The notes beneath the pieces are model-generated. The model searched no databases. It was not told the DNA's origin and saw nothing but the letters and a program-made list of their open reading frames with translations. This document shows, one piece after another, positions 21,168 through 28,414 of a DNA stretch of 42,597 nucleotides (its first letter is position 1; every line of letters starts with the position of its first letter). Location: positions 1 through 42,597 of the forward strand of contig JAFGWA010000088.1 in the NCBI GenBank assembly GCA_016937715.1, read 5' to 3'. Position numbers and translations under genes: made by a program. Origin of the DNA: Candidatus Goldiibacteriota bacterium. Lineage in GTDB: Bacteria > Oederibacteriota > PGYV01.

Positions 21168-22430
21168 ATGAAAAAAACTGTTCTGTCAGCTTTATTAATT
21201 ATTATCTGCATTGCGGGAATTTCCTGCAAAAGGCCGCTTGCCGTCTCTGTGTCCGCGTCACCGGAACAGTCATCAGCCATAGACGGCGTATTAAAAGATT
21301 TTACAAAAGAAACAGGAATAAAAGTTATTTTAAATTCAGTACAGGGGCCGCAGCAGCAGGTGATGTCAAACCTTTCAGGCGCGCTTAATTCACAGTCAGT
21401 CCCGGACCTTGTAATTTTTGACCTTGTCTGGGTGCCTTTTTACGCGGCTGACGGAATGTTTGAACAGCTTGATGAATATATTATAAGTTCCAAGTTTGAC
21501 ACGTCTGTTTTTTTCCGGAATGTGTTCAAACCTGTTGACACGCGCGAAGGCAGGACAATAGCGCTTCCTTTGACAATGGACGCGGGCGTGGCATTTTACC
21601 GCAAAGACGCGGCAGAAGCTTATAAACTTACCAATCTTCCGTCGTCATATAAAGAAATTTCAGACTACAGCAGAAATATGGCGAAAAAGATAAGAACCGC
21701 CGGAAGGGGCGCGGTCTTAAACGGCGCATATTACGCTTTCCAGGGATCCATATCAGAACAGACAGTGTGCAACTTTATTGAAGCCGCGGCTTCAAACGGC
21801 GGCGGAATCTTTATTCAGGACGGAAAGTTTATAATCAATACGCCGCAGAATACAAAAGCGCTTGAGACGTTAACTGATCTGATAAAAAATAAAGTATCTT
21901 CTTCAAAAAATTATGAACTTGGCAAAGACGAATACATAAGGGCGTTTTTTCAGCAGGGAGGCGCTTTTGCCGCAAGGGGCTGGGCGTCAGATATTGTTTT
22001 TCATAACTCTTCAATTTCGCTTCTTAAGGGAAAGACGGCCGTGTATGAAGTGCCGTCCGTGATAAAAGGAAAATCTTCGCCTGTTGCGGGCGGGCTGCAT
22101 ATGGCAGTGGCGGCAAAGTCGGTATCCAAAGAAAACGCTGTCAGGCTGGCGTTTTACCTTGCGTCCAAAAAAGCGCAGAAAAAACTTGCGTTAAACAGCG
22201 GCGTTATACCGTCAAGGGCGGACGTATATTCTGACCCGGAAATTATTTCAATGCGCCCGGAATTTGCCATGCTTCCCGCTGTTTTTTCAAAAGCGGTTTT
22301 AAGGCCGGTTGACCCAAGATATCCCAAAGCATCAGAAATAATGCAGAAATATATCTCCGCGGCGCTGTATGGCGCTTATTTACCCGCGGACGCGCTTATA
22401 AAGTGCCAGGCGGAACTGGACAGAATTTAG
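21168..22430 (+). CDS. Extracellular solute-binding lipoprotein (ABC family 1-like)
   Basis: This 420-residue precursor has a lipoprotein-type signal (hydrophobic core, then GISC at about 17-20; the lipobox is slightly off consensus). The rest resembles family 1 sugar-type binding proteins: VSVSASPEQSSAIDGVLKDF, then TKETGIKVILN, SVPDLVIFDLVWVPFYAADG, LPLTMDAGVAFYRKD and a late AVRLAFYLASKKAQKKL. No ABC permease or ATPase gene is nearby, so its transporter is elsewhere or it has another role. It follows the barrel protein by 26 bases, with CCGGAGG before the start. Confidence 0.82.
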   Translation: MKKTVLSALLIIICIAGISCKRPLAVSVSASPEQSSAIDGVLKDFTKETGIKVILNSVQGPQQQVMSNLSGALNSQSVPDLVIFDLVWVPFYAADGMFEQLDEYIISSKFDTSVFFRNVFKPVDTREGRTIALPLTMDAGVAFYRKDAAEAYKLTNLPSSYKEISDYSRNMAKKIRTAGRGAVLNGAYYAFQGSISEQTVCNFIEAAASNGGGIFIQDGKFIINTPQNTKALETLTDLIKNKVSSSKNYELGKDEYIRAFFQQGGAFAARGWASDIVFHNSSISLLKGKTAVYEVPSVIKGKSSPVAGGLHMAVAAKSVSKENAVRLAFYLASKKAQKKLALNSGVIPSRADVYSDPEIISMRPEFAMLPAVFSKAVLRPVDPRYPKASEIMQKYISAALYGAYLPADALIKCQAELDRI

Positions 22431-22542: not shown

Positions 22543-23865
22543 ATGTCCGAATACAATGAATATTTTATGACGTTAAAAGACGGTACAATAAAACAGATTA
22601 ACCCTTTTACCGGCACGGAAGTATGGAACGTTCCCGGCCGCGGAAGCAAACCCATCACCAATGACGTGCCTTTAAGCGCAAAAAAAATAGAGAGAAAAGA
22701 AAAGGAAGATTACTGTAATTTCTGTGAAACAAAGTATACTAACACTCCGCCGGAAAATGACAGGCTTGTCAGGAAAGGAAAAAAGTATGAAATAATGACA
22801 GCTGTTTTACCGTCCGAACTTGATAAAACTGTGCCTGTGTTCAGGCGCATTCCGAACCTTTTTGAAATAGTGACAATGGATTACTGGAAAAAGAATTTTG
22901 GCTATGTAATGCCCAAAGAAGTGGAAGATGCCAAGAAAAAATACCTTGAAGATAAAAAAGGGCTGGAACACGTCACGCACATTGTGGACATGAAATTAAA
23001 ACTGCTGGGGCGTAACCCTGATGAAGTTAATTACAATGAAAAAATGGAAATTGCGGACGCGTTTTTCGCGGGCGGGCATGAACTTATAGTGGGCGCCAGG
23101 CATTATATTGAAGGCGCCGACTATGACACGCAGCTTTGCAGTTCCGGCGAGTTAACCCCCGAAGAACACTTTCAGTATCTTAAATTTACCATCAGCGGAA
23201 TGATGAATATTTACAGGCATAACAAATACGCGCGCTACGTGGCTGTTTTTCAGAACTGGCTTAAACCCGCGGGCGCTTCTTTTGACCATCTGCACAAACA
23301 GCTTGTGGCGCTTGATGAATGGGGCGTGGCGCTGGAACGCGAACGCGATCTGTTAAGGAAAAATCCGAACATATACAATGAAATGGCTGCCAACATGGCG
23401 CTGTATTACAACCTTGTAGTGGCGGAAAACGAACACGCTATTGCTTTTTCGGATATAGGGCACAGGTATCCCACGATTGCAATTTTTTATAAAGGCGAAA
23501 AACCTTTCCCAAAAGACCTTGATGAAAATGAACTTAAAGGGTTTTCTGATATTGTGCACGCCATACACGCCGCGCTTACAAATCAGACCGCGGCCAATGA
23601 AGAATGGTATTACACCCCCAAGGACAGCGTGGACACGGTGCCGTGGCACATTCTGATTAAGATGAGGATAAACACCCCGGCGGGGTTTGAAGGCGGCACA
23701 AAAATATACATCAATCCCATGAATCCATATGATTTAAGGGACAAAGTGATAACCAGGCTTATGCAGTTAAGGCAGCAGGATAAAATAGCGGACATAAAAA
23801 TAGGGCAGGAATGCGGCACCGAACCAAACCCGCTGCAGTATTACAGAAAGTATTACAACAGATAA
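22543..23865 (+). CDS. DUF4921 family protein (galactose-1-phosphate uridylyltransferase-like)
   Basis: This 440-residue protein matches the DUF4921 group: DGTIKQINPFTGTEVWNVPG at the start, a CNFC pair near residue 66 resembling the GalT zinc site, VFRRIPNLFEIVTMDYW, and a SFDHLHKQ segment (His-x-His-x-Gln) corresponding to the HIT/GalT catalytic motif. It is expected to be a cytosolic nucleotidyl transferase or hydrolase acting on sugar phosphates, though substrates of this group are not established. AAGGAAGG precedes the start. It sits between lipoprotein genes and may be the sugar-nucleotide enzyme of a surface polymer pathway, which is inference. Confidence 0.85.
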   Translation: MSEYNEYFMTLKDGTIKQINPFTGTEVWNVPGRGSKPITNDVPLSAKKIERKEKEDYCNFCETKYTNTPPENDRLVRKGKKYEIMTAVLPSELDKTVPVFRRIPNLFEIVTMDYWKKNFGYVMPKEVEDAKKKYLEDKKGLEHVTHIVDMKLKLLGRNPDEVNYNEKMEIADAFFAGGHELIVGARHYIEGADYDTQLCSSGELTPEEHFQYLKFTISGMMNIYRHNKYARYVAVFQNWLKPAGASFDHLHKQLVALDEWGVALERERDLLRKNPNIYNEMAANMALYYNLVVAENEHAIAFSDIGHRYPTIAIFYKGEKPFPKDLDENELKGFSDIVHAIHAALTNQTAANEEWYYTPKDSVDTVPWHILIKMRINTPAGFEGGTKIYINPMNPYDLRDKVITRLMQLRQQDKIADIKIGQECGTEPNPLQYYRKYYNR

Positions 23866-23889: not shown

Positions 23890-23921
23890 CCAAAAAAGTA
23901 TTTTATAAAAAGAGGTGGATA

Positions 23922-24827
23922 ATGAAACATTTATTTTTTTTAATTATGGCTGTATCTTTTTTATTTGTATCGTGCGGCACCGGCGATTCAGCCTTAAAAG
24001 ATGATAAACCGTATAAAGACACAGCCGCGCGGGCTGTAAGCGCGGATGAAGGCGCGCCTTCGCTGGAAGAGTCCGCGGCAAAACTTGATTCAAAGACGGT
24101 GGCATCCATAGGCGCTTATGTGATATCCGACGCAAAATACAAAATGATGAAAAAATACAACGAAGAAAAGTATGAATATAAACTTTCAGCGGAACAGGAA
24201 AAAGAGTTTCTGGAATACGTTATAAACAAAAAGCTTATGGCAATAGAAGCCAGAAAACTTGGCTACGCGGAAAAACCGGAAGTGGCCGCCAGATATGAAT
24301 GGGATTTTGATGAAATTCTTTCGCACGCGTATTATACGGATACCGTGGAAAACAAACTTAAAATAACGGATAAAGAAGCAAAGGATTATTACGAAAAAAA
24401 TAAAGAAGACTTTGTGGAATTATCATCCCAGCATATGCTTATAAAAAATAAGGACCTTGCCCTTAACCTGCGCAAAAGGATTGCGTCGGGTGAAAGTTTT
24501 GACGAGCTTACAAAAAAATACAGTGAAGACGCCACTACAAAAGAACAGGGCGGCAAACTTCCGCTTTTTGGAAAAGGCGTAATGGTGGAAGAATTTGAAT
24601 ACGCGGCTTTTATGCTGTCGCCGGGAGAAGTGTCAGATCCGGTAAAAACAATTTACGGGTATCATCTTATTAAAGTTAATGAAAAAAAGAAAATATCTTT
24701 TGACGATTCAAAGGATAAAATAATTCAAATGGTGCGAAACAACAAACAAAGGGAATTTTTTAACGCTTTGATAGCCGGATTAAAAAAGAAATACGAAGTC
24801 CGCGTGAATGAAAATCTTTTAAAGTAG
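23922..24827 (+). CDS. PpiC/SurA-type peptidyl-prolyl isomerase lipoprotein
   Basis: This 301-residue precursor carries a lipoprotein signal (FLFVSCG, Cys near residue 18), a SurA-like helical region (about 60-150) and a parvulin domain (about 160-265). The parvulin signatures are SSQHMLIKNK, then SFDELTKKYSEDATTKEQGG, and GEVSDPVKTIYGYHLIKV. Such proteins help fold outer-membrane or exported proteins. The ATG at 23922 is chosen because it begins the signal peptide and has an AGAGGTGG site; earlier in-frame starts lie inside the previous gene. The next gene starts ten bases after the stop. Confidence 0.9.
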   Translation: MKHLFFLIMAVSFLFVSCGTGDSALKDDKPYKDTAARAVSADEGAPSLEESAAKLDSKTVASIGAYVISDAKYKMMKKYNEEKYEYKLSAEQEKEFLEYVINKKLMAIEARKLGYAEKPEVAARYEWDFDEILSHAYYTDTVENKLKITDKEAKDYYEKNKEDFVELSSQHMLIKNKDLALNLRKRIASGESFDELTKKYSEDATTKEQGGKLPLFGKGVMVEEFEYAAFMLSPGEVSDPVKTIYGYHLIKVNEKKKISFDDSKDKIIQMVRNNKQREFFNALIAGLKKKYEVRVNENLLK

Positions 24828-24837
24828 GGTGCGAAAA

Positions 24838-27177
24838 ATGAAAAATAAAAGTTTTATTGTTATTTTTATCATTGCGGCTTTTGTTACCTGCTGCATGCCG
24901 GGATGTTCCCCCAAAGCTGTTGTAAAAGACCCAAATGCCGCGCTTTCAGGTTTAAAAGTTGATATAACGGAAGAAGAGTATAAGGAATGGAAAAAACTTG
25001 CTTCTGAAGGTATTAATACGGCAGAACGCGCCAAAGGGGCGTTTTGGGCGGGGCAGTACTGCCTTAATAAAAATGATATTCAAAACGCCGAAAAGTATTT
25101 TGGGCACAATGAAAGATATTATTCCGATATTATCTGGGGATACTTATCGGTGCTGCGGCTGTCTGAAATAAGCGTTGAAAGAAAAGACACGGAAACAGCG
25201 CTTAAAAAATTTAAAATACTGGCGGAAAAAAGGCACCAGTTTCCGGAATTTAAGGACGCGGTACTGGGAAGGCTTAAAGAAATAATTTCCGCGCAGGACA
25301 TGGACGGGCTTAAAAAAATATATGCCGCGCGATATCACGCGCTTATAGATGAATACGCGCTTTATTACATAATAAAACAGGACATAAAAAACAATAATTC
25401 CACTGATTTCTTCACGCACGCAAGGTCTTTTGTCATGGAATACAGGGACAGCGAATTTTATCAGGAAGTTTCCGATGAATTCAGAAAAGCGGTGCTTTAT
25501 AAGCCGGTTAATAAAAGAAAGATAGGCGTAATACTTCCCCTGACAGGAAAAGGCATGGCCGCGGGAGAGTCAATAAAAAATGCCATAGAGATGGGAGTTG
25601 CGGAGTTTAACGCGGAAATTAAAGAAGATGAAGAAAAACTTGCGCTTGTGTTTGTGGATGAATCTATGGAATCCGAAGCCCTTGTTAAAAAAATAGTCAA
25701 AGTTATAGAAGAAGACAATGTTATAGCTTTTGCAGGGCCGGTCTTCAGCAATAATGTTAAAAAAATAGCGCCTCTGCTGGAAAGTTACAACGTCACTTCG
25801 TTTTCTTCAACCGCCGCGCGTCCGGATTTAACCGGCGCAAGCCCGTATTTTTTCAGAAACTGCGGAACGGTAAAAGGGCACGCTTACGCGATGGCCAAAT
25901 ACATAACGGACAGAACCCCATACAGAAAAGTGGCTTCCCTTTATCCAAATGACGCGCTGGGCAAATCTCTTAATGATTTTTTTGTTGAAAAAATATTACA
26001 GGGGGCTTCCCTTGCCGGAAGCGTGGGTTTTGAACCTTCCAAAAGCGATTTTCTTAATTACCTTGTTCCGCTTGGAGGCATTAATACAATGCTTTTAAAG
26101 GAAAAACGCGCGGCAGAGACAAGGGCTGTTAATGATAAAATGGAAGAAGCGGGCAGGCAGGTTCTTGAAAAAGCTTTTGAGTATATGAAAGTGTACCGTA
26201 ACTGGGCGGCAACCGACGTATTAAAAGAAGAGGACCTTCCAAAGGTAAATATAGCCCTTTTAAGGTTTTCCTCTGAGGGTGAAAACGTAAAACGCTATAA
26301 TTTAGATATTGATATGACAAAGCAGATGTCATACGCTATGGCAAGGGACGAAAAAGTGTTTGTTGCCAAGCAGGCGCAGACGGACGGGCTTATGGATGAA
26401 ATAGGCGTTGAACCCGAAGATGTGGACAGGGAAATAGCTTTAAATATCGCCCAGCAGCTTAAAAGCGATATTTTAGTATGGGGTATTATAGAAGAAAGGC
26501 AGTCCAACACCATATACGCAAGTTTTATTCCAAAAGAAGCTGAATATGACAGCCAGGGCAATACAAAGTATTCCTATTCTTTTACCGATGAAGATTATCT
26601 TTATTTTGACGTGACCATAAGGGCCATTTCCGTAACCGATGAAACCGCGGTTGATGAAGTTAAATTTACAGTTAAGAAACTTAAAGAACCTGTGCTTAAC
26701 CCGCTTGGGCTGGAAGCTGTTTTTGTGCCTGCAACCGAAAGAAAAATAACACTTATAAGGGACCAGCTTAAATATTATGACCTGGACCTGCCTATTTTCT
26801 GCGGCACTTTTGACAATCCGGCGTATCTTCTTAACTTTATGGAAAGTTCGCAGGGTATTCATTTTACGTCCGAATTTTATCCGGATGAGCCGTCTGAAAA
26901 TATTCAGAAATTTATCGCTGATTATAAGGAAAAATACGCCGCCATGCCGGGTGTAATTGAAGCAAACACATATGACACAATAAAAATAATGACTGCCATA
27001 CTGCAATCCGGCGCTGAATCAAGGGAAGCGTTTAAGGATATGCTTAAATCGGTAAGAAACTACGAAGGCGTAACCGGAAGGTTTTCTTTTGACGCAAATA
27101 ACGACCCTATAAAAGAGTATTACATTATGAAAATTGAAGACGGTATAAAAATTCTTGGAAAAATAAAGGGAGAATAA
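24838..27177 (+). CDS. LpoA-like lipoprotein with a CsgG/TolB-like insertion
   Basis: This 779-residue precursor has a lipoprotein-type signal (MPGC near residues 20-23), an alpha-helical TPR-like region (about 40-215) and a type 1 periplasmic-binding-protein fold beginning at KRKIGVILPLTGKG (about 226). That fold runs to about 415 and resumes at NPLGLEAVFVPA (about 621) to the end. Between these parts lies about 200 extra residues with KVNIALLRF, a VFVAKQAQTDGLMDE segment, ALNIAQQLKSDILVWGIIEE and a following strand pair, resembling a CsgG/TolB-N-type domain. TPR plus binding-protein fold is the layout of LpoA, an activator of penicillin-binding proteins. The ATG at 24838 has AGGG eight bases upstream and is preferred to the GTG at 24829. 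hisS follows after one base. Confidence 0.78.
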   Translation: MKNKSFIVIFIIAAFVTCCMPGCSPKAVVKDPNAALSGLKVDITEEEYKEWKKLASEGINTAERAKGAFWAGQYCLNKNDIQNAEKYFGHNERYYSDIIWGYLSVLRLSEISVERKDTETALKKFKILAEKRHQFPEFKDAVLGRLKEIISAQDMDGLKKIYAARYHALIDEYALYYIIKQDIKNNNSTDFFTHARSFVMEYRDSEFYQEVSDEFRKAVLYKPVNKRKIGVILPLTGKGMAAGESIKNAIEMGVAEFNAEIKEDEEKLALVFVDESMESEALVKKIVKVIEEDNVIAFAGPVFSNNVKKIAPLLESYNVTSFSSTAARPDLTGASPYFFRNCGTVKGHAYAMAKYITDRTPYRKVASLYPNDALGKSLNDFFVEKILQGASLAGSVGFEPSKSDFLNYLVPLGGINTMLLKEKRAAETRAVNDKMEEAGRQVLEKAFEYMKVYRNWAATDVLKEEDLPKVNIALLRFSSEGENVKRYNLDIDMTKQMSYAMARDEKVFVAKQAQTDGLMDEIGVEPEDVDREIALNIAQQLKSDILVWGIIEERQSNTIYASFIPKEAEYDSQGNTKYSYSFTDEDYLYFDVTIRAISVTDETAVDEVKFTVKKLKEPVLNPLGLEAVFVPATERKITLIRDQLKYYDLDLPIFCGTFDNPAYLLNFMESSQGIHFTSEFYPDEPSENIQKFIADYKEKYAAMPGVIEANTYDTIKIMTAILQSGAESREAFKDMLKSVRNYEGVTGRFSFDANNDPIKEYYIMKIEDGIKILGKIKGE

Positions 27178-27178
27178 A

Positions 27179-28414
27179 ATGAAATTCAGCCGCCTTCGCG
27201 GTGTTAAGGATGTATTCGGGGAAGAGACGGCGGTATGGGAAACAATAAACGCAGCCGCGCGTAAAATGTTCTCTTTATACGGATACAACAATATCATCAC
27301 TCCCGTTATTGAGGATGTTAACCTTTTTGCCCGCGGTATAGGCGAAGGCACGGATATTGTTATAAAAGAGATGTATGATTTTAAGGATAAAGGCGACAGG
27401 CACATTGTACTGCGCCCGGAAGGCACCGCGTCTGTGGTAAGGGCGTATATAGAAAACAGCCTTCCGGTAAAAAGCGACCTGTATTATTACGGGCCAATGT
27501 TCAGGTATGAACGGCCTCAGAAGGGGCGTTTCAGGGAATTTTTTCAGGTGGGAGCGGAAAGTTTTGGCGAAGCTTCGCCATATAAAGACACGGAAGTGAT
27601 AAAACTTGCGCAGGATATTTTGGCAGAAACAGGGATAAAAGACTGCAAACTTCTTATAAACAACCTTGGCGCGAAAAAAGATTACAAGGATAACCTTGTA
27701 AAATACCTTGAAGAGCGTAAAAGTCAGCTTTGCGAAGACTGTCTTAAAAAGATAGAACGCGCGCCGATAAGGGTGCTTGACTGCAAAAGTGAAAAATGTA
27801 AAGAAGCAACAAAAGACGCGCCTTTAATAACCGATAACCTTACACCGGAAGCCGCGGCTCATTACGCTGAAGTTAAAAGATTATTAACTTTATCCGGAGT
27901 GAAATTTGAAGAAGATCCAAAAATGGTCAGGGGGCTTGACTATTATACAGGCACAGTATTTGAATTTACCACCACACTGCTTGGGCCGCAGCAGAACACA
28001 ATTCTTGCGGGCGGGCGTTATGACAACCTTGTGGCGGAATTCGGCGGAAAAAGCACTCCGGCCACGGGATTTGCGATGGGGATGGAACGTATGGCGGAGG
28101 TTTTAAAAACACAGCAGGCGCAGATATTATCGCCGTTTGGCGTGTTTATAGTATATGACGCGAAACACAGGGATATGGCTTTTAATGTATTAAATATGTT
28201 AAGGCAGGGCGGTATAAAAACCCTGATATCATTTGAAGATAAAAGTTTTAAAGCGCAGTTCAGGGAAGCGGATTCAAAAAACGTAAAGCACGTAATAGTA
28301 ATAGGCGACACGGAAGCGCAGGCGGACAGGCTTGCGGTAAAAGATATGAAGACAGGCGAACAGATGAATATTGAAACAAATGAAGCGGTACAGTATTTTT
28401 TAAATCTGAAATAG
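27179..28414 (+). CDS. hisS: Histidyl-tRNA synthetase
   Basis: This 411-residue class II synthetase charges tRNA-His. It shows the N-terminal LRGVKDVFGEE, motif 2 in GPMFRYERPQKGRFREFFQ, the histidine-binding RGLDYYTGTVFE segment, motif 3 in ATGFAMGMERM, and a C-terminal anticodon-binding domain (about 325-411). Length is typical. Its start lies one base after the preceding stop, so it is transcribed with the upstream lipoprotein genes, an unusual place for a synthetase. Confidence 0.97.
   Translation: MKFSRLRGVKDVFGEETAVWETINAAARKMFSLYGYNNIITPVIEDVNLFARGIGEGTDIVIKEMYDFKDKGDRHIVLRPEGTASVVRAYIENSLPVKSDLYYYGPMFRYERPQKGRFREFFQVGAESFGEASPYKDTEVIKLAQDILAETGIKDCKLLINNLGAKKDYKDNLVKYLEERKSQLCEDCLKKIERAPIRVLDCKSEKCKEATKDAPLITDNLTPEAAAHYAEVKRLLTLSGVKFEEDPKMVRGLDYYTGTVFEFTTTLLGPQQNTILAGGRYDNLVAEFGGKSTPATGFAMGMERMAEVLKTQQAQILSPFGVFIVYDAKHRDMAFNVLNMLRQGGIKTLISFEDKSFKAQFREADSKNVKHVIVIGDTEAQADRLAVKDMKTGEQMNIETNEAVQYFLNLK

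Follow-up and report, generated by a model that had tools for sequence, protein, structure and literature searches.

Gene and domain layout at the locus

We analyzed a window of 42,597 nucleotides that comprises contig JAFGWA010000088.1 of a Candidatus Goldiibacteriota genome (GCA_016937715.1). At the center of our analysis is a gene for an LpoA-like lipoprotein in which a second domain is embedded (Table 1). Its open reading frame is intact and starts with an ATG at 24838, and an in-frame GTG lies at 24829. Because the frames of the orthologues are also open and free of internal stops, an error in the gene model was excluded. The orthologues retain the lipoprotein signal and the Cys.

The TPR match of the window protein was weak in Pfam (residues 59-154), and the same part was clear in a homologue from a sister family (L172; TPR_6, E 2.5e-10; YfiO, E 8e-9). 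Peripla_BP_6 was matched by Pfam over two separate stretches, of which the first spans 228-409 (E 2.4e-37). When 3td9 was compared with the window protein by phmmer, residues 228-406 and 626-769 paired with chain residues 18-194 and 206-352. Only about 12 residues separate those two stretches in 3td9 itself, and therefore about 200 residues are inserted in the window protein. An earlier note on this DNA had placed the split at about residue 415 with about 200 extra residues, which was right within a few residues; by the refined boundaries, about 50 of these residues form a helical linker, which insert-free relatives have in a short form.

Table 1 Features of the lipoprotein gene and of genes discussed with it. 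Positions refer to the window unless a locus is given.
Feature	Position	Strand	Evidence or remark
SBP_bac_1 sugar-type binding lipoprotein	21168-22430		
DUF4921 protein	22543-23865		PF16268, 5e-177
PpiC-type lipoprotein	23919..24827	+	PF13616, 6.4e-22; 10 bases upstream of the LpoA-like gene
LpoA-like lipoprotein with predicted CsgG-superfamily insert, whole gene, 779 aa	24838..27177 (including stop)	+	
Lipoprotein signal peptide, residues 1-23 (...MPGC23, Ser at +2)	24838..24906	+	Lipobox judged by eye
Helical TPR-like N-terminal domain, residues 41-222	24958..25503	+	TPR_21, E 0.06
Type-1 periplasmic-binding fold, first part, residues 226-416	25513..26085	+	Peripla_BP_6, A5 profile 2.4e-69
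Helical linker, residues 417-467	26086..26238	+	
Inserted alpha/beta domain, predicted CsgG/TolB-N/LpoB superfamily, residues 468-615	26239..26682	+	
Order-specific conserved loop within the insert, residues 554-590 (RQSNTIYASF...FTDEDYLYF)	26497..26607	+	Between two strands
Type-1 periplasmic-binding fold, second part, residues 625-774	26710..27159	+	Starts LEAVFVPA
hisS	27179..28414	+	1 base downstream of the LpoA-like gene
True LpoB-family lipoprotein, elsewhere in the genome	L167:3245-3847 (G000:C60)	-	PF13036, 5.7e-41

Across the order, the genes run DUF4921, PpiC lipoprotein, LpoA-like gene, hisS, pdxA, rsmA and glmS, the last three being what we take these genes to be from their sequences. 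The PpiC-type lipoprotein that the earlier note saw directly in front of the gene is indeed there, and this gene pair was kept in the order neighborhoods checked (L170, L171, L174, L180 and L181); it does not extend phylum-wide. In sister families, the gene directly before the LpoA-like one encodes a lipoprotein that carries a peptidoglycan-binding OmpA domain. Two DUF4398-type lipoprotein genes, one with the OmpA domain, were seen directly upstream there (L172:11566-13097, L173:7414-8864, L175:6754-8042). The adjacency to hisS was kept outside the order in most of the phylum families examined (L172, L173, L175, L176 and L179), and we see no obvious functional reason for this placement directly upstream of hisS. 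Several genera of the order keep the DUF4921 gene beside the cluster, and the SBP_bac_1 lipoprotein gene has no transporter gene among its immediate neighbors.

The host fold resembles LpoA

Judged by its sequence, the lipoprotein has the layout of LpoA, with a TPR-like N-terminal domain and a type-1 binding C-terminal domain. The LppC family (PF04348) scored the window protein at 16.9 bits, under the gathering cut-off of 28.8. Seven orthologues from the order (up to 45.4 bits) and others in the phylum passed this cut-off, with one match per genome, and in genomes that also encode a LivJ-type protein LppC matched only the LpoA-like gene. The alignment of the host profile with E. coli LpoA reached 96.8% (E 2e-10). 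This supports the LpoA layout named in the earlier note.

The closest solved structures to the host fold were LivJ-type proteins (4gnr, 3e-66), which are nearer than LpoA. We therefore compared the positions that we take to form the amino-acid site of LivJ. In the true transport proteins of the phylum, T102, D121, Y202 and E226 were kept in nine of nine, apart from substitutions of Y202 by Met in two and of E226 by Asp in eight. These pocket residues were lost across the LpoA-like set; the window protein has S-T-A-A-V-L-T-T at LivJ positions 79, 100, 101, 102, 121, 150, 202 and 226. The branched-chain amino-acid pocket is thus lost in the LpoA-like lipoprotein. Inspection of the neighborhoods of the window and of the phylum loci revealed no transporter gene adjoining the LpoA-like gene. 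With the pocket lost and no adjacent transporter, the protein is therefore no LivJ-type transport protein. It shares its host fold with its nearest solved relatives, the LivJ-type solute-binding proteins, but differs from them in the lost pocket, the added TPR domain and insert, and the missing transporter.

Sequence profiles place the insert in the CsgG/TolB-N/LpoB superfamily

Pfam assigned no family to the insert of the window protein. The inserts of other phylum members matched FlgT_M, FlgO, LpoB and CsgG (E 3e-5 to 5e-3), which we take to be one fold superfamily. We built an insert profile, A1, from 28 sequences across the phylum and compared it with all PDB chains. The best match was 4q6l (LpoB, 0.0025), followed by 4q6z, 5t10, 2mii and then 9h80 (PelC). 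In rank order, LpoB was followed by PelC-like proteins, a second LpoB and PelC, and two of the nine sequences were unrelated. The phylum-wide profile was needed here, since a profile from the inserts of the order alone gave no PDB match.

When A1 was run over the phylum genomes, it recovered the host genes and, at 5e-11 and weaker, free-standing proteins. Nine of ten tested free-standing matches were called CsgG by Pfam, up to 1e-40, and A1 aligned with free-standing CsgG proteins in register over about 120 residues. It also recognized the insert of four loci that had been left out of its construction (L073-L076), with values from 5e-13 to 3e-6.

Because these CsgG proteins had been picked by the insert profile itself, we gathered independent CsgG, TolB_N and LpoB sets by Pfam alone for hhalign. 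The phylum-wide insert profile aligned with CsgG at 98.5% (E 2.5e-15), with TolB_N at 94.4% and with LpoB at 89.8%, and the order-only inserts aligned with CsgG at 93.9% (1.6e-7), with LpoB at 1.9% and with TolB_N at about 2%. As controls we used profiles that were reversed or column-shuffled (30 shuffles), GT51, the TPR part and each half of the host fold; all stayed at or below 2.2%, and the reversed and column-shuffled insert controls at or below 1.5% against CsgG. In the opposite direction, the independent CsgG profile matched the insert of another locus (L017) at 1.5e-8 and, with a small search set, that of the window protein at 0.003 in the same register; the latter match covered 472-561, numbered from the GTG, and the best reversed decoy reached 0.15.

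At the level of sequence profiles, the insert therefore belongs to the CsgG/TolB-N/LpoB superfamily, in agreement with the CsgG/TolB-like identity given in the earlier note. We rejected the insert as a part or duplicate of the binding lobe, as it aligned with both host halves at 1.7% or less, and E. coli LpoA carries only a 39-residue flexible loop at this place, so that neither objection raised in the earlier note applies. An assignment to the LpoB domain was not supported, since the CsgG set outscored the LpoB set in hhalign. AlphaFold2, given two sequences only (the window protein and L031), returned a pLDDT of 38 for the whole protein and 38 for the insert.

The insert resembles the free-standing CsgG lipoproteins (PF03783) in that its profile matches them in register, but it is embedded in another fold and has no lipobox of its own. 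LpoB (PF13036) and TolB-N (PF04052) belong to the same fold superfamily by profile and match the insert more weakly than CsgG does, and a separate LpoB is encoded in the genome. The C-domain of LpoB has been described as similar to TolB-N (PMC7267771).

Conservation and distribution of the architecture

One orthologue was found in each of the 13 remaining order genomes, at 39-91% identity; 12 are complete, and a contig end truncates the other. All complete orthologues of the order carry the insert, and other families of the phylum have it at the same place. Within the order, mean pairwise identity was 29% for the linker, 45-53% for the inserted domain and 46-51% for the host fold. The highest value of all segments, 53%, belonged to the 37-residue loop 554-590, which is polar and is short or absent in the sister families (alignment A1). 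This conserved polar loop is a possible binding site.

By our own count from the A1 search, 35 of 45 sampled phylum genomes carry the insert inside the LpoA-like gene with statistical support. In one further family, f16, the insert was recognizable by hhalign (92.5% to CsgG). That of family f12 was weak when taken alone (hhalign 2-20%) and matched the phylum-wide profile, of which f12 is itself part. In family f9 (L081, G016:C40), this loop is occupied by a segment that is similar in length but has no recognizable CsgG-like resemblance, which may reflect either rapid decay of the CsgG-like domain or its replacement. In the remaining phylum genomes, the gene was fragmentary, weak or absent.

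Outside the phylum, we ran the host profile without the insert over 384 genomes, a broad but not exhaustive sample. The best matches, in frames of 590-740 aa, aligned without a break, and the ten out-of-phylum relatives examined lacked the insert, their loop comprising 15-68 residues. Long non-phylum matches of the insert profile were checked for fusion, and a binding fold was present in none. The insert-free TPR and Peripla_BP_6 lipoproteins of other phyla (e.g., L026 and L242-L244) share the layout and an LGG-x-D helical extension that precedes the DA(I/V)F strand, but their loop holds no CsgG-like domain. By these comparisons, the architecture is common to nearly the whole phylum, and the insertion would have occurred at or near its base.

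The earlier note did not know this combination from described proteins, and our literature searches, which covered few subscription journals, likewise returned no description of it. Here a known kind of protein has a new domain architecture, one that is ancient within the phylum and conserved there.

The insertion lies at region 2 of E. coli LpoA

E. coli LpoA is an activator of cell-wall synthesis. The host resembles it as a lipoprotein with a TPR-like N-terminal domain, a degenerate type-1 binding fold and an insertion in the same loop. The differences are that E. coli LpoA has a flexible stretch of 39 residues there rather than a domain, that its PBP1A has an ODD docking domain, and that the sequence similarity is remote.

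E. coli LpoA has two flexible regions that are absent from H. influenzae, and the function of both was stated as unknown (Jean et al., PMC4111904). Region 2 is the stretch S493-N531. In our alignment, region 2 ends immediately before GGRVDAVYIVATPGEIAFIKPM of E. coli LpoA, which is paired with LEAVFVPATERKITLIRDQL of the window protein, and the LEAVFVPA strand, in the second part of the binding fold, is aligned with VDAVYIVAT. The alignment at this junction is carried by the conserved strand and not by the loop itself. Since region 2 ends right before the paired strand, the CsgG-like domain occupies the region-2 loop, and by this alignment the insertion slot coincides with LpoA region 2.

Class A PBPs and LpoB in the genome

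The source genome encodes two class A PBPs, one of 724 aa and one of the PbpC type, with GT51 and transpeptidase domains and, in one of them, BiPBP_C. A search of both for a docking domain of the ODD or UB2H type gave no match. E. coli LpoA activates its PBP via the ODD (PMC4632607). Direct PBP activation by the LpoA-like lipoprotein thus appears unsupported by any docking domain in these class A PBPs.

A separate LpoB-family gene is present in 11 of 14 genomes of the order. In the source genome, LpoB is present although the class A PBP has no UB2H domain, and its gene adjoins one for a 428-aa TPR lipoprotein. Matches to PF13036 occurred in 119 of 240 sampled genomes, far outside the gammaproteobacteria. 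A Pfam search of the order genomes for CsgG and TolB_N genes found none.

Proposed function and alternatives

We propose that this lipoprotein, with its LpoA architecture and CsgG-superfamily insert, is probably an envelope-spanning scaffold or regulator tied to peptidoglycan synthesis; its location, its partner and its part in that regulation are what we infer here. The earlier note suggested that the protein could couple cell-wall synthesis control to an outer-membrane or envelope complex, and its caution on this point was justified. The protein would probably be anchored in the outer membrane, with a TPR-like stalk followed by a pocket-less type-1 binding fold, and the superfamily domain would have entered the loop that precedes the 'DAVY' strand in lobe 2. 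Most likely, the whole would form a rigid scaffold that extends from the outer membrane toward the machinery for peptidoglycan synthesis, and the inserted domain would provide an added partner-binding surface. Besides the profile matches, the insert-free relatives, the lost pocket and the region-2 position described above, the OmpA-domain lipoproteins upstream in a sister family and the presence of a class A PBP and a true LpoB in the genome count for this proposal. Counting against it are the class A PBP without UB2H or ODD, the score of the window protein under the LppC cut-off, a host fold nearer to the LivJ type, the failure of the order-only inserts to match LpoB or TolB_N, and the low pLDDT.

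The proximity of the host fold to LivJ-type structures, together with the placement of the insert in the mobile second lobe, would also fit a solute-binding protein that has lost its transporter and now senses amino acids or peptides, with the insert relaying ligand-driven closure to a partner. We consider this unlikely, as the pocket residues that the true transport proteins of the phylum keep are replaced here and no transporter gene lies nearby; a different ligand for the altered binding fold is possible. CsgG-family domains such as CsgG and PelC form rings, and the insert could accordingly be an oligomerization module of an outer-membrane-linked ring or belt serving export or acting as a structural collar. 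CsgG and PelC-like proteins are among its closest superfamily members by profile, and the conserved loop of the order aligns where CsgG has its membrane hairpin. Yet that loop is polar and short in sister families, unlike a membrane hairpin, and LpoB and TolB-N, which belong to this superfamily too, act as partner-binding domains rather than rings, so we give a ring a low probability.

A fusion of LpoA and LpoB functions in one polypeptide, with the insert as an LpoB-type PBP activator, would agree with the LpoA layout of the host and with LpoB as the best PDB match of the insert. This seems very unlikely to us, given that the insert is nearer to CsgG than to LpoB in both hhalign comparisons, that most genomes of the order keep a separate LpoB-family gene, and that the PBP has no UB2H. 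Returning to the scaffold or regulator that we favor, the loop before the DAVY strand might be a general docking slot of LpoA-type proteins, disordered in E. coli, short and helical in many phyla and filled here by a CsgG-type partner-binding domain. Elsewhere in the order genomes, CsgG and TolB_N genes were not found, and the result might be a one-piece envelope regulator that replaces separate Lpo/Tol components, a tentative and somewhat doubtful extension of our proposal.

Overall, these findings extend LpoA-type proteins well beyond the gammaproteobacteria, to a lineage whose cell-wall control is unstudied. Since a phylum-conserved domain of the LpoB/TolB-N superfamily fills one of the flexible slots of LpoA, the region-2 slot may be a partner-binding site. 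If so, loss of region 2 from LpoA, or of the insert from the lipoprotein described here, should affect binding.
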